Origin: Evansella clarkii
Lineage (GTDB): Bacteria > Bacillota > Bacilli > Bacillales > Salisediminibacteriaceae
Reading direction: 5' to 3'
DNA length: 64,000 bases
Assembly (NCBI RefSeq): GCF_002019695.1
Contig: NZ_KV917376.1
Coordinates: forward strand, 2,880,040-2,944,039
Position 1 is the first letter of the stretch, and the number at the start of each line of letters is the position of its first letter. The position numbers and the translations under genes are program-made. Of this stretch, positions 3,311 to 22,083 are shown one piece after another. A model generated the notes under the pieces. The model had not been told where the DNA came from and searched no databases. It saw nothing but the letters and a program-made list of their open reading frames with translations.

Positions 3311-5361
3311 AAGAAAAGCGTATAAATGACCGTTACGAGCTGCTGAGGCCAGTGGGCGGCGGAGGAATGGCTGATGTTTATTTAGCAAAAGATATCATTC
3401 TTGACAGAGAAGTGGCTGTAAAAGTCCTGAAACCTCAATTCTCAGGGGACGATGAATTTATCAGGCGTTTCCGGCGGGAAGCGCAGGCCGCAACAAGCCT
3501 TTCACATCCCAATGTGGTGAATATATACGATGTTGGGGAAGAGGACGATCTGTATTATATAGTAATGGAATATATCAGCGGTGATACGCTGAAGGATTAT
3601 ATCCAGAAAAAAGGAAAGCTGAGTGTGGAAGAAACAGTCAGCATTATGGAGCAGATTACAGCTGCAATCGGACATGCTCATGAAAACCGGATCATACACC
3701 GGGACATTAAACCTCACAATATACTCATAGGCTCAGACGGGCAGGCGAAAGTTACGGATTTTGGTATTGCAAGAGCAATCAGTGAGGCGACGATTACACA
3801 TACAAATTCTGTTCTGGGTTCCGTTCATTATCTTTCACCTGAACAGGCAAGGGGAGGCCATGTAACCAGCAAATCCGATATTTATTCACTGGGAATAGTA
3901 ATGTATGAAATGCTCAGCGGGGCAGTCCCTTTTAATGGTGACACAGCTGTATCTGTTGCAATCAAACATTTGCAGGAACCTCTGCCATTTCTCCGTGATA
4001 ATGAACCATCCATACCTCAAAGTGTGGAAAATGTAGTTCTGATAGCCACAGCGAAAGACCCTCAAGCCAGATATGACTCAGCGGACCAGATGGCAGAGGA
4101 TCTGACTACCGTCCTGTACCCTCAGAGAGAAAATGAAAAGAGAGCGGTTCAGGGTGAACAGGATACGGAAGCCACAAAGGCAGTGCCTGTGGTCCTCAGC
4201 GGAAATGAGAAAGATAATGAACAAACGATGATACACAATAAACCAGCAGGAAAAAATCCGCCAGCTGGCGAGGACGACTCAGGGAAACACGACAATAAGC
4301 AAGAAAAGAAAAAACGAGGGAAAAAGTTCTGGATAACTGCAGTAGTAGTATCTCTGCTGGCCATAGTCATTGCAATAGCTATTCTGCTGCCAGGCTGGCT
4401 TAGGGTCGATGAAGTTACTATCCCCGAAGATCTGGTCGGTATGGAGTACGAGGAGGCACTACAGGAACTTGCCGCCCTTAATCTGGAGGTGGAACCGGAG
4501 TTCCGCTTTGATGAAGAAGTGGAAGAGGGCATAGTACTGGCCCATTCTCCAGGATCAGGTGCAACTGTAAAAGTAGGAACAAGCGTGAGGCTTATTGTAA
4601 GTGAAGGTTCTGAGCCGGTTGAAATGCCAAACCTTGTTGGTGAATCATTAAGCTATGCAGAACAACTGCTGGAAAATTACGAACATGTAGAACTAAATTA
4701 CCAGGAATCAAGCGAATATGATGAAGACACTGTTTTGACCCAGTCACCAGAGGCTGAATCCATGGTTATTCCAAGCGAGACTACTGTTACTCTTACAGTA
4801 AGTGAGCGTCCGGTTTATATGATGGCAAACTTGTATGGAATGTCAAGGACTGAAGTTCTGGAGACACTTGAAGATAATGATTTAATCGTTCTTGATTTTA
4901 CAGAAGAGTACCATTCTACAATTGAACCAGGGAAAGTTGTTTCACAAGACCCTCCCAGGGGAACTGAAATTCGTGAAAGAACTACTGTGAGAGTTGTATT
5001 TTCTGCTGGACCGGAACCAGAACCAGAACCAGAACCGGAGCCGGAACCAGAACCAGAACCGGAAAATGAACCGGAAGAACAGCCGGTATCAGCCAGTGTT
5101 CCGTTTGATGTCAGTATCCCTGACTGGGATGGAGACGAGGAAGACCGACCAGTTTACAGAGTAAGTATTTCCGTTATTGATATGAGAAGCGAAGAACCGA
5201 GACAGGTAATAGACAGAGAAGTATCCGAAGATGAAAGGTTTCATATAGATATGAGGGTTGCCCCCGGTGAATCAGGCTATCTTGTTGTCATCGTTGACGG
5301 TGAAGAGCATGAAGAATCACCGTATGAATACACCTATGAAGAATTGCAGGAGTATGAGTAA
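3307..5361 (+). CDS. prkC: PASTA-domain Ser/Thr protein kinase PrkC
   Basis: Membrane sensor kinase responding to muropeptides and controlling germination and cell-wall processes in Bacillaceae. The order is: Hanks-type kinase domain (about 1-275) with glycine loop PVGGGGMADVY, HRDIKPHN near 131-138 and DFGIARA near 151; a charged linker; one transmembrane helix (about 340-362); and three extracellular PASTA repeats (about 368-575). Next comes an uncommon Pro-Glu dipeptide tract from about residue 568, and then a ~75-residue acidic beta-rich C-terminal segment. At 684 aa it is longer than the ~650 aa B. subtilis protein. The tail may sit near the cell wall, which is an inference from topology. 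Coupled to prpC. Confidence 0.95.
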   Translation: MKEKRINDRYELLRPVGGGGMADVYLAKDIILDREVAVKVLKPQFSGDDEFIRRFRREAQAATSLSHPNVVNIYDVGEEDDLYYIVMEYISGDTLKDYIQKKGKLSVEETVSIMEQITAAIGHAHENRIIHRDIKPHNILIGSDGQAKVTDFGIARAISEATITHTNSVLGSVHYLSPEQARGGHVTSKSDIYSLGIVMYEMLSGAVPFNGDTAVSVAIKHLQEPLPFLRDNEPSIPQSVENVVLIATAKDPQARYDSADQMAEDLTTVLYPQRENEKRAVQGEQDTEATKAVPVVLSGNEKDNEQTMIHNKPAGKNPPAGEDDSGKHDNKQEKKKRGKKFWITAVVVSLLAIVIAIAILLPGWLRVDEVTIPEDLVGMEYEEALQELAALNLEVEPEFRFDEEVEEGIVLAHSPGSGATVKVGTSVRLIVSEGSEPVEMPNLVGESLSYAEQLLENYEHVELNYQESSEYDEDTVLTQSPEAESMVIPSETTVTLTVSERPVYMMANLYGMSRTEVLETLEDNDLIVLDFTEEYHSTIEPGKVVSQDPPRGTEIRERTTVRVVFSAGPEPEPEPEPEPEPEPEPENEPEEQPVSASVPFDVSIPDWDGDEEDRPVYRVSISVIDMRSEEPRQVIDREVSEDERFHIDMRVAPGESGYLVVIVDGEEHEESPYEYTYEELQEYE

Positions 5362-18972: not shown

Positions 18973-19740
18973 ATGCAACAATCACGAAAGATTCAAAGAA
19001 GAGGAATAAAACGCCCAGCAAGAAAGCTTCAAATGACAAAGGCGCAAAAACAGAAGTACCGCCAGTTCTTATCTTCCATAGATATTCATTTTGATAATGA
19101 AGACCTGTTTATACAAGCCTTCACGCATTCATCTTATGTAAACGAGCACAGAATACGGCCGCATGATGACAATGAACGGCTGGAGTTTTTAGGCGATGCA
19201 GTTTTGGAATTGGCCATCTCTCAGTACCTCTACAAAAAATACCCGAACATGAGCGAAGGTGAGATGACCAAACTCAGAGCTGCAATCGTATGCGAACCAT
19301 CATTGGCAAAAACAGCCGACCATCTCCACTTCGGTGATTATGTCCTCCTCGGTAAAGGAGAAGAAATGACAGGGGGCAGAAAACGGCCCGCACTCCTCGC
19401 AGACGTATTCGAGTCATTTATCGGGGCCCTTTACCTTGACCAGGGAATGGAAGCCGTATACAAGTTCCTTGAAGAACACGTCTATCCGAAAATCGAAGAA
19501 GGCGAATACTCTCATATGATGGATTTTAAATCCCAGCTGCAGGAACTCATTCAGCGTGAAGGGCAAGGCCACATCCAATACAAAATCGTACAGGAAAAAG
19601 GCCCCGCCCACGCAAGAGAATTCGTCTCGGAAGTATGGCTCGAAGAAGAAGAACTAGGCGCCGGAACCGGCAGATCCAAAAAAGAAGCCGAGCAAATGGC
19701 CGCCCAAAAAGCACTGGAAAAACTCACAAACAACCACTAA
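18973..19740 (+). CDS. rnc: Ribonuclease III
   Basis: Double-strand-specific endoribonuclease for rRNA and small cytoplasmic RNA processing. N-terminal basic extension of ~25 residues, then the catalytic domain with the signature [17 protein letters not shown] (about 63-79) and the second acidic cluster [15 protein letters not shown] (about 143). A dsRNA-binding domain ends the protein (about 178-252, [14 protein letters not shown] and [17 protein letters not shown]). 255 aa, near the B. subtilis length of 249. It is followed by a strong terminator and then by the tandem hairpin array rather than by smc. Confidence 0.97.
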
Positions 19741-19757
19741 TTTTATCGACTGACCAG

Positions 19758-19827
19758 GAACTGGAAAAGAAATTGCCGATGAATTCATTCAGCAAGGCAG
19801 CATCTCTTTTTCCAGTTCTTTTTTTAT
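19758..19827 (+). terminator. Long-stem terminator after rnc
   Basis: GAACTGGAAAAGA (19758-19770) pairs with TCTTTTTCCAGTTC (ending at about 19818) and is followed by a run of seven or more T. The ~33-base loop itself contains a short inverted repeat (TTGCC / GGCAG). Confidence 0.8.
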
Positions 19828-19915: not shown

Positions 19916-19963
19916 CATTTGGGCCGGGAGTGGTGAGTGGTGCAGGCAGAAGTTGCAATTTGA

Positions 19964-20853
19964 ACGTCTCGCATACCCGCTCGGGATAAAATAACGCCCA
20001 AGCGGTAACGCGAGCACGTCTCGCATACCCGCTCGAGATAAAAAATCGCCCAAGCGGTAACGCGAGCACGTCTCGCATACCCGCTCAGGATAAAAAATCG
20101 CCCAAGCGGTAACGTGAGAGCATCTCACACACCCGCTCGGGATAAAATAACGCCCAAGCGGTAACGCGAGCACGTCTTGCATACCCGCTCGGGATAAAAT
20201 AACGCCCAAGTGGTAATGCAAGAACGTCTCACATACCCGCTCGGGATAAAATAACGCCCAAGCGGTAACGCGAGCACGTCTCGCATACCCGCTCGGGATA
20301 AAAAATCGCCCAAGCGGTAACGCGAGAGCATCTCGCATACCCGCTCGGGATAAAATAACGGCCAAGCGGTAACGTGAGAGCATCTCACACACCCGCTCGG
20401 GATAAAAAATCGCCCAAGCGGTAATGCAAGCACGTCTCGCATACCCGCTCGGGATAAAATAACGGCCAAGCGGTAACGCGAGAACGTCTCGCATACCCGC
20501 TCGAGATAAAAAATCGCCCAAGCGGTAACGCGAGCACGTCTCGCATACCCGCTCAGGATAAAATAACGGCCAAGCGGTAACGTGAGAGCATCTCACACAC
20601 CCGCTCGGGATAAAATAACGCCCAAGCGGTAACGCGAGAACGTCTTGCATACCCGCTCGGGATAAAATAACGCCCAAGTGGTAATGCAAGAACGTCTCAC
20701 ATACCCGCTCGGGATAAAATAACGCCCAAGCGGTAACGCGAGAGCATCTCGCATACCCGCTCGGGATAAAATATCCCCCAAGCGGTAACGCGAGAACGTC
20801 TCGCATACCCGCTCGGGATAAAAAATCGCCCAAGCGGTAACGCGAGAGCATCT
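19964..20853. repeat. 52-bp tandem hairpin repeat array, about 17 units
   Basis: Seventeen near-identical 52-bp units in direct tandem, plus a broken last unit ending at 20853. Each unit is an imperfect palindrome of about 41 bases: CCCAAGCGG pairs with CCGCTCGGG (outer stem, one A-C mismatch) and GCGAG pairs with CTCGC (inner stem) around a 5-base loop (CACGT, AACGT or AGCAT). The units are separated by an A/T-rich linker such as ATAAAATAACG or ATAAAAAATCG. In three units the inner stem is GTGAG / CTCAC, a compensatory change that keeps pairing. Units 2-6 and 11-15 share the same pattern of variants, pointing to an internal block duplication. All three minus-strand frames are open because the unit has no stops on that strand. 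Confidence 0.93.
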
Positions 20854-21096
20854 CAACCCCTCTCTGTCCCCATGCATACCCTCCAATCCCAAAAACAAAA
20901 ATAATAAATTATCAGAAAAGTGTGTTATACTTACTTCATATATTATCCAAAGGGATGATTAACCAGGGCCGCTCTTCTAAGCTGCGGTCATTTTTGACGG
21001 CTTTATTCCTTTTCGGAAAACAGCTTAACATAATTAATTTATTGTAAACAATCAACGCAACGCTGATCTTTTTAAAACAACTGAGGCGGGAGATGT

Positions 21097-22083
21097 ATGA
21101 GAGAAATATTAATCGGCATTGCAGCATCGATGTTTTTTGCAGTCACATTTATACTTAACCGTTCCATGGAGCTTGGCGGCGGAAGCTGGTTATGGAGCTC
21201 TTCATTAAGATTTTTATTTATGGTCCCGTTCCTGGTTATTATCGTACTCCTTAGGAAAAACATGAAACAACTGCTCCAGGAGATGGTAAAAAACCCTCTC
21301 CCATGGATAGTATGGAGTTTTACAGGATTCGTCCTGTTTTACGGCCCTCTTACATATGCAGCAGCTTATGGGCCAGGCTGGCTTGTAGCAGGAACCTGGC
21401 AGCTCACTATCGTAGCCGGCGTCTTACTGACACCATTTTTTTACAAAAGCATACCTGCTCCAACAGGAACAATCAAAGTAAGAGAAAAGATTCCTGTATT
21501 TGCGTTAATATTTTCTGTGATTATTTTTTCAGGCGTCATGCTCATGCAATGGCAGCACGGCAGTAATCTCACATGGAGTATTGCTTTATTAAGTATTTTG
21601 CCTGTGGCAGTGGCCGCTTTTGCATACCCTCTGGGCAACAGAAAAATGATGGAGTTATGCGGGGGGAGGCTTGATACTTTTCAGAGGGTTCTTGGAATGA
21701 CACTGGCAAGTCTCCCATTCTGGGTAATAATTGGGTCTGCTGGGTACGCAACTGCCGGTCTTCCGTCATCCAGCCAGATGATCCAGGCTTTTGTCGTAGC
21801 TGTCTGCTCAGGGGTTGTAGCTACTACATTATTTTTTATAGCTACTGACAGAACGAAGGGTGACCAGGGAAAACTCGCTGCGGTAGAAGCTACCCAGTCG
21901 ACTCAGGTAATGTTTGTATTAGTAGGGGAAGTACTGCTTCTTTCAGCTCCGCTGCCTGACGGTCTGGCATTTGGCGGGCTGTTCCTGGTGGTACTCGGTA
22001 TGCTCCTTCACAGTTTTTTTGCCAGAAAGTCTGTGGAAAAATTACCGGATGTTAATGTGATAAAGAGTGAACAAAAAATTTAA
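21097..22083 (+). CDS. Multidrug resistance efflux transporter family protein (DMT superfamily)
   Basis: Integral membrane protein of 328 aa with about ten hydrophobic helices (first at about 4-20, then 28-50, 67-85 and onward), in the drug/metabolite transporter superfamily and most like the EmrE-domain group of Bacillaceae. No substrate can be deduced. A GAGGCGGGAG ribosome binding site precedes the ATG. The GNAT gene starts 15 bases after its stop, so they form an operon. The ~230 bp upstream contain an inverted repeat (CCGC / GCGG near 20970-20986). Confidence 0.8.
   Translation: MREILIGIAASMFFAVTFILNRSMELGGGSWLWSSSLRFLFMVPFLVIIVLLRKNMKQLLQEMVKNPLPWIVWSFTGFVLFYGPLTYAAAYGPGWLVAGTWQLTIVAGVLLTPFFYKSIPAPTGTIKVREKIPVFALIFSVIIFSGVMLMQWQHGSNLTWSIALLSILPVAVAAFAYPLGNRKMMELCGGRLDTFQRVLGMTLASLPFWVIIGSAGYATAGLPSSSQMIQAFVVAVCSGVVATTLFFIATDRTKGDQGKLAAVEATQSTQVMFVLVGEVLLLSAPLPDGLAFGGLFLVVLGMLLHSFFARKSVEKLPDVNVIKSEQKI

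Follow-up and report, generated by a model that had tools for sequence, protein, structure and literature searches.

Interspersed tandem palindromic repeats of Evansella clarkii and other Bacilli: arrays oriented mostly along the replication fork, some with a neighbouring NERD-domain gene

Array layout and neighboring genes

The window, a 64,000-nt stretch of the Evansella clarkii genome (C1:2880040–2944039 of genome G000), contains a tandem repeat array between the gene for RNase III and a transporter gene (Table 1). The roughly 17 tandem 52-bp units reported in a preliminary description of this DNA were confirmed by TRF, with 87% matches and zero indels. The imperfect hairpin of each pair spans the junction of two neighboring units. 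Units 2–6 recur, at an offset of nine units, as units 11–15, with 52, 49, 51, 52 and 50 of 52 positions identical. Paired GTGAG/CTCAC variants, noted earlier as changes on both arms that keep pairing, are indeed present at junctions 3/4, 8/9 and 12/13, but they are not three independent compensatory changes: the variants at 3/4 and 12/13 sit in the duplicated block and therefore reflect one or two events. The rule is also broken at junctions 5/6 and 14/15, where GCAAG is paired with CTCAC.

Table 1. Features at and around the array (window coordinates).
Feature	Position	Strand	Basis
rnc (RNase III), about 220 bp upstream of array, incidental neighbor	18973..19740	+	Pfam Ribonuclease_3, dsrm
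Intrinsic terminator of rnc, long loop, between gene and array	19758..19825	+	read from sequence
Tandem array, about 17.2 type A units, period 52	19962..20854	+	TRF
17 complete 52-bp units (loop and right arm, A-rich linker, left arm)	19966..20849	+	
Units 2–6, block duplicated as units 11–15	20018..20277	+	49–52 of 52 identical per unit
Right arm of 8/9 junction hairpin, GTGAG/CTCAC variant	20382..20392	.	
Example unit no. 10: right arm GTCTCGCATACCCGCTCGGG, linker ATAAAATAACGG, left arm CCAAGCGGTAACGCGAG, then loop letters	20434..20485	+	
Units 11–15, second copy of block	20486..20745	+	
EmrE-type transporter gene, downstream of array	21097..22083	+	PF13536, E 1.1e-109

The minus strand had been thought free of stop codons in every frame; this was an error, as 7 of the 17 units contain a minus-strand stop. 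One minus frame of the window array is open for 375 aa. Minus-strand stops occur in 99 of 290 units and 31 of 39 loci across the Evansella arrays, so the reading frame is not conserved. With a period that is no multiple of three as well, a coding role of the array was rejected.

Nor does the array lie directly behind rnc, since a gap of about 220 bp, including an intrinsic terminator, separates them. The terminator stem (19758–19770 with 19805–19818) is followed by a T run and was omitted by a consensus scan that covers loops of 3–8 only. Of 40 Evansella loci, 16 have a strict terminator-like site pointing at the array within the 220 bp before it, and 11 have one within the 220 bp after it; shuffles gave 0.9, and reading the upstream stretch the other way gave 6. 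Arrays therefore often follow a terminator. The array itself is not a chain of terminators, since the T run stands apart from the hairpin. Between 18973 and 22083, the window has no smc-length ORF after rnc, but the transporter and a GNAT gene instead. The sequence after rnc varies among Evansella relatives, and in several stretches, from Alkalicoccus and others, rnc has an ORF of about 1190–1200 aa nearby. Elsewhere in the window, positions 5010–5076 carry a short tandem repeat of ACCAGA units.

A dispersed repeat family with two unit types

The 52-bp unit has 129 matches at 24 dispersed places in G000, so that the position beside rnc is incidental. Neighboring genes, where scanned, differ between loci, and a search with the unit profile was negative in 28 stretches that carry rnc and come from named relatives, of which four are titled Evansella. 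A partnership with RNase III, which the preliminary description had raised as suggestive, was rejected on these grounds. The closest named relatives by rnc are Evansella species, led by E. tamaricis (85%). Among eight other Evansella genomes, the unit was found in one (G003), also with a covariance model; two of nine Evansella genomes therefore carry the arrays.

Type A units were extracted from the Evansella loci (308 units, of which 290 were in register and 276 distinct, from 39 loci); units below the set bit scores (12–25 bits, depending on the step) or out of register were left out, and locus L019 gave none in register. The consensus consists of an A-rich linker, AGCGGTAACGCAAGAG, a short loop and CTCGCATGCCCGCTCGG. 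It folds into an 8-bp tip with a triloop, a 2×2 internal loop and an outer stem, with a T.C mismatch in mid-stem in 260 of the 276 units. Linkers are specific to each locus and alike inside it. A second unit type, B (AGAAAGGTAACGCTGGAGCGTCCATCATGCCCGAACT), is in phase with type A where read, and 18 of 44 Evansella stretches contain at least two type B hits that are not better explained by type A. The T.C mismatch is present in 88% of the Evansella type B units. Five loci were read across A/B junctions, and at four of them (L011, L020, L044 and L057, but not L030) both arms of the inner stem are of one type.

Copy number differs between genomes. Locus L016 holds ten units in G000 and half a unit in G003, as judged by eye, and a site behind secG, treated below, is occupied in one genome and empty in another. 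L021, between ABC transporter genes, is occupied in G003, and none of the seven array-free Evansella genomes gave a full match to the empty site. At L196 (G003 2204128–2204875), a different tandem repeat, ATCAATCAACGAAA-like, lies where G000 has ten 52-bp units. An ordinary minisatellite, with few unrelated loci and random unit changes, does not describe what was found, namely 24 related places, a conserved core and two in-phase types. Carriage by phages or plasmids was rejected, as viral contigs, plasmids and phages gave zero matches; a pattern scan of wider genome contigs for the Evansella-type unit gave none, although near genomes may be absent from that set.

Outside Evansella, the unit model matched G052, a genome from another family of the order, where 53-bp arrays of two types often lie side by side; 63% of its type A units carry the T.C mismatch. 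A combined model added G099, G161 and G158. The G158 arrays have a period of 52 bp, and the secG site mentioned above is occupied in G052 and empty in G158. After A-like units in the array region of G158 contig C14 (L262), a third 52-bp unit type was observed, CGAATGGATCCCGTCGAAGC... In all, periods of 52–53 bp, close to five turns of B-DNA, recur in six genomes. Arrays were found in 5 of 397 genomes of the order sample, the window's own included (E 1e-4, strict filters), a count in which absence from relatives is weak evidence since the order-wide searches score few candidates per genome. Five further genomes gave weak matches to the covariance model at E 0.01, and the true spread may be larger than the matches listed. 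A search of open-licence PMC papers returned no description of this repeat family.

Fold, pairing and strand bias

The palindromic fold proposed earlier for the window array is borne out far beyond chance, with −520.6 kcal/mol (z −23.4) for the minus strand and −379.8 kcal/mol (z −15.4) for the plus strand, against 20 shuffles each. Selection for pairing within a unit type, also proposed, was not upheld by the covariation check: pairing is near the independent expectation over the 276 distinct type A units from 39 loci. Within either the Evansella (EvA) or the G052 (G52A) type A set, covariation is not clear against shuffles, some measures being reached by 22–29 of 300 shuffles and others by more.

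Between types, pairing is kept to a greater extent. For EvA and G52A together, 91.4% of pairs are kept versus 76.4% in shuffles, and with Evansella type B (EvB) added, 87.5% versus 69.8%. In these between-type sets, 0 of 300 shuffles reach either the pairing percentage or the covariation score, with the limits that the shuffles ignore relatedness, that the EvA and G52A signal appears on two of four measures, and that it reflects few lineage-level events. Pairs changed on both sides are not unusual in EvA and G52A (8 versus 7.1 shuffled, reached by 83 of 300 shuffles); with EvB added, their number is reached by 5 of 300. Differences between the type consensuses are paired at positions 3, 4, 8, 12, 13, 16 and 17 from the loop, and unpaired at 5 and 13–15 in EvB and at 14–15 in G52A (the G052 type B register used here is not optimised). 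The hairpin thus persists across unit types and bacterial families though both arms differ, with most pairs kept, and the between-type pairing supports a conserved fold without being a strong test of it. Of the earlier proposal of a structured nucleic-acid element, the part concerning structure therefore stands, by the fold kept across types and families and the recurrent period, while its link to rnc does not.

The two strands are not equivalent in type A. At three pairs of type A, most wobbles take the G.U form on the minus strand (120 vs 39, 224 vs 2 and 131 vs 21); the minus-leaning pairs are 4, 7 and 16 in EvA and 4, 6 and 9 in G52A, with EvA pairs 1 and 5 leaning slightly to plus. Minus-strand RNA folds better in 242 of 276 EvA and 74 of 86 G52A units. 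EvB leans slightly to the minus strand (74 vs 34 of 112 units, DNA parameters), and G052 type B folds better on the plus strand (79 of 90 units with DNA parameters, 57 of 90 with RNA parameters).

Orientation relative to the replication fork

The window array is on the plus strand of its contig, in the direction of the fork (dnaA at C1:1137665). This is the prevailing arrangement in the four genomes scored, which belong to three families: 22 of 24 arrays point along the fork in G000, 16 of 16 in G003, 16 of 16 in G052 and 14 of 17 in G161. Origins were placed by dnaA or GC skew and the arms verified by skew. For G161, 150 of 1155 candidates were scored, and origin and terminus were taken from GC skew, as the retrieved pieces yielded no dnaA; the 16 G052 clusters lie in 14 fetched stretches. 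Outside the 16 scored rows of G003, L194, L223, L224 and the second L058 cluster are co-directional, and L202 and L203 are inverted.

The total is 68 of 73. Since 15 of the 16 scored G003 loci have G000 orthologs, the fairer count is 53 of 58, with Evansella orthologs counted once (P = 1.7e-11 against 0.5, 8.6e-5 against 0.7 and 0.0014 against 0.75). As background, 150 of 214 ORFs of at least 100 aa in the Evansella stretches are co-directional with the fork. Eight inverted places were identified: L022 and L024 in G000, their orthologs L202 and L203 in G003, three G161 places at 2.731, 3.232 and 3.704 Mb, and the type B block of L046. The two inverted Evansella loci form one subfamily, kept in both species. 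A transposase-like gene, of IS3 type by eye, adjoins L203 (G003 665454–667705).

Transcription is a real confounder, as the upstream gene agrees with the array direction in 32 of 40 Evansella loci. Arrays between convergent genes follow the fork in 18 of 19 cases (16 of 17 with orthologs counted once). Where the fork and upstream-gene rules differ among 56 loci of G000, G003 and G052, the fork prevails by 11 to 1, L024 being the exception; L022 breaks both rules. ORFs were called by length only, and 5 of these 11 loci rest on ORFs of 100–155 aa. At the other six (L010, L023, L049, L053, the second L185 cluster and L220), the upstream ORF exceeds 200 aa, with Pfam support at L010, L220 and the second L185. 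Judged by these loci, array orientation is tied to the fork more closely than to the neighboring genes. Type B units differ in strand bias from type A, yet their arrays are mostly oriented alike; orientation is therefore not set by hairpin strength alone.

Three options had been left side by side in the preliminary description: an RNA hairpin chain, a protein-binding array and a replication or recombination structure. Because orientation tracks the fork better than neighboring genes, the evidence favors a DNA element tied to replication, and the type A wobbles keep the RNA option open.

A NERD-domain gene next to arrays

A protein of 299–316 aa recurs at array loci in five genomes, encoded in the direction of the array and ending about 15 bp (L194, G003), 18 bp (L258, G099, and L272, G161), 26 bp (L191, G052) and 57 bp (L013, G000) before it. 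All four proteins scanned match the NERD domain (PF08378) above the Pfam cut-off, with E values of 1.7e-17 to 1.9e-14. D80, E93 and K95 (D...ExK) and four cysteines are invariant across the five sequences, and a four-cysteine, zinc-ribbon-like region and C-terminal helices were noted by eye. The protein is predicted to be a PD-(D/E)XK nuclease with intact catalytic-type residues. The Evansella proteins share 32–36% identity with the others, and those of G052 and G161 share 80%. PglW and MAD6, defence proteins that contain a NERD domain, were matched weakly. To our knowledge, little has been established about the function of NERD proteins.

Six ORFs near arrays in G000 have a match near arrays in G052 (E 1e-8), and the five other than the NERD gene are not array-adjacent in the same direction in both genomes. 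A GNAT pair is the downstream neighbor of an array in G000 and G052, in opposite directions. No NERD gene was present at the two G158 loci examined. In G161, several array copies have the final 84 nt of the NERD gene on their left side, and on their right a common flank that at one locus resembles, by eye, an IS3-type gene end. Part of the spread in that genome is thus explained by copying with an IS or segment, and the flanked arrays look like copies made together with part of the NERD gene. Open-licence PMC papers on NERD proteins and repeats gave no description of palindromic chromosomal arrays.

Comparison with known repeat systems

STAR elements of Staphylococcus are interspersed in intergenic DNA as direct repeats, with tandem units of about 50 nt, a conserved motif, a locus-specific spacer and copy-number turnover at a given locus (PMC3532100). 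The present arrays share the unit size, dispersed intergenic loci, locus-specific spacers and turnover. They differ in that the STAR core motif TNTGTTGNGGCCCN (PMC3532100) has 0 matches in the 44 Evansella stretches and the window array, and in that the passages on STAR report neither a replication orientation nor a linked gene, both of which are found here.

REP, BIME and REPIN sequences are described as short imperfect intergenic palindromes with a conserved mid-stem mismatch and a linked nuclease-type gene, the RAYT or TnpA-REP transposase (PMC6006769, PMC3116915). The repeats studied here resemble them in the imperfect palindrome, the conserved internal T.C mismatch, the linked nuclease-type gene and a lagging-strand logic. 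In contrast, the units here stand head-to-tail at 52–53 bp, and the linked gene encodes a NERD (PD-(D/E)XK-like) protein rather than a Y1/HUH transposase.

Repeat arrays lacking Cas genes have also been listed with PD-(D/E)XK proteins, with NERD among the putative CRISPR auxiliary genes in a figure legend (PMC10910872), and an array beside a PD-(D/E)XK family gene is a common feature. Their spacers are hypervariable, whereas here the linkers of a locus resemble one another and the repeats are palindromic. The likeness of linkers also does not match the unique spacers of a CRISPR array. A Pfam scan of 13 flanking or nearby proteins showed zero Cas families.

Interspersed palindromic repeats are common, but a plain, fork-tied and largely gene-independent orientation in several lineages is seldom seen. 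Two points appear to be new, the fork-wise orientation of the arrays and the NERD gene 15–57 bp before one array in each of five genomes. Found beside an array in three lineages (Evansella; G052; G161 with G099), the NERD gene provides a first candidate enzyme for a STAR-like repeat.

Possible mechanism and alternatives

With moderate confidence, and on sequence evidence, we read the window array as one copy of an interspersed, non-coding family of tandem palindromic repeats of patchy occurrence in the Bacilli, which would act at the level of DNA, coupled to replication, and behave much like STAR and REP elements, with the NERD protein as a candidate partner. Units would multiply locally by slippage or unequal exchange, and copies would survive, or be inserted, predominantly with one orientation relative to the fork. 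As a trans-acting partner, the NERD protein is the most likely candidate; it would recognise the hairpin or its junction, in a role comparable to that of the RAYT transposases serving REPs, though the nuclease fold differs. Binding, cutting and mobility are putative steps in this reading. A tentative, rather doubtful extension is a two-part system in which the NERD nuclease would recognise the folded unit during replication and spread or remodel the arrays. Such a system would be REPtron-like, based on PD-(D/E)XK rather than HUH chemistry, and the arrays would record fork direction. A benefit to the cell is the weakest part; our guess is that the arrays are mainly self-maintaining.

Survivorship among neutral minisatellites could produce a similar picture, if arrays lasted only where the stronger hairpin stays off the lagging-strand template, by analogy with trinucleotide repeats, whose instability depends on orientation. 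The type A strand bias has the sign so predicted, block duplication and copy-number turnover are expected, and the lack of clear within-type covariation also fits, but G052 type B, including L218, where only type B hits were found, combines the opposite strand bias with the same orientation. Since a plain minisatellite further leaves the 24 dispersed places, the cross-family pairing and the NERD association unexplained, this explanation is considered unlikely. A function of the arrays in RNA or through RNase III is also less likely than one in DNA, and seems rather improbable in its specific form, in which the minus strand would be transcribed head-on to the fork and its hairpin chain processed by RNase III or another factor, for example to block head-on or read-through transcription. 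The better folding of minus-strand RNA, both in type A units and in the window array, the minus-strand G.U wobbles and the many arrays between convergent genes are what it predicts. It is opposed by the lack of a T run directly after the hairpin, by B types without a minus-strand bias, by tandem-gene loci without a called minus-strand neighbor ORF, by zero Rfam 15 covariance-model matches above the gathering score in the window, and by a number of promoter-like sites (3 between 18500 and 21200) no higher than the 3.5 expected.

A signal for chromosome organisation, such as a polar site that a translocase, a primase or a nucleoid protein would use and that is selected in the fork direction, would account for the common orientation in three families and the near five-turn period, but an essential signal is ill-suited to arrays present in so few genomes of the order sample and of Evansella, and we regard this as the least probable reading. 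Hardly more credible is a mobilisation of REP-like elements by the Y1/RAYT transposases that these genomes encode, with lagging-strand DNA as the substrate. The conserved mid-stem mismatch and the fork orientation would suit such enzymes, and Y1 proteins of about 180–265 aa are encoded in G000 (four), G003 (four) and G052 (one); however, Y1 genes are also present in all seven array-free Evansella genomes, and the surroundings of the eight Y1 genes in G000 and G003 contain no unit (best match E 1), so service of the 52-bp unit by RAYT in the manner of REP or REPIN was rejected. These eight genes (L154–L161) are located near other short repeats, such as GGGTGGTGCCTGTC and AACCCGGTCCATC, which are unrelated to the 52-bp unit.
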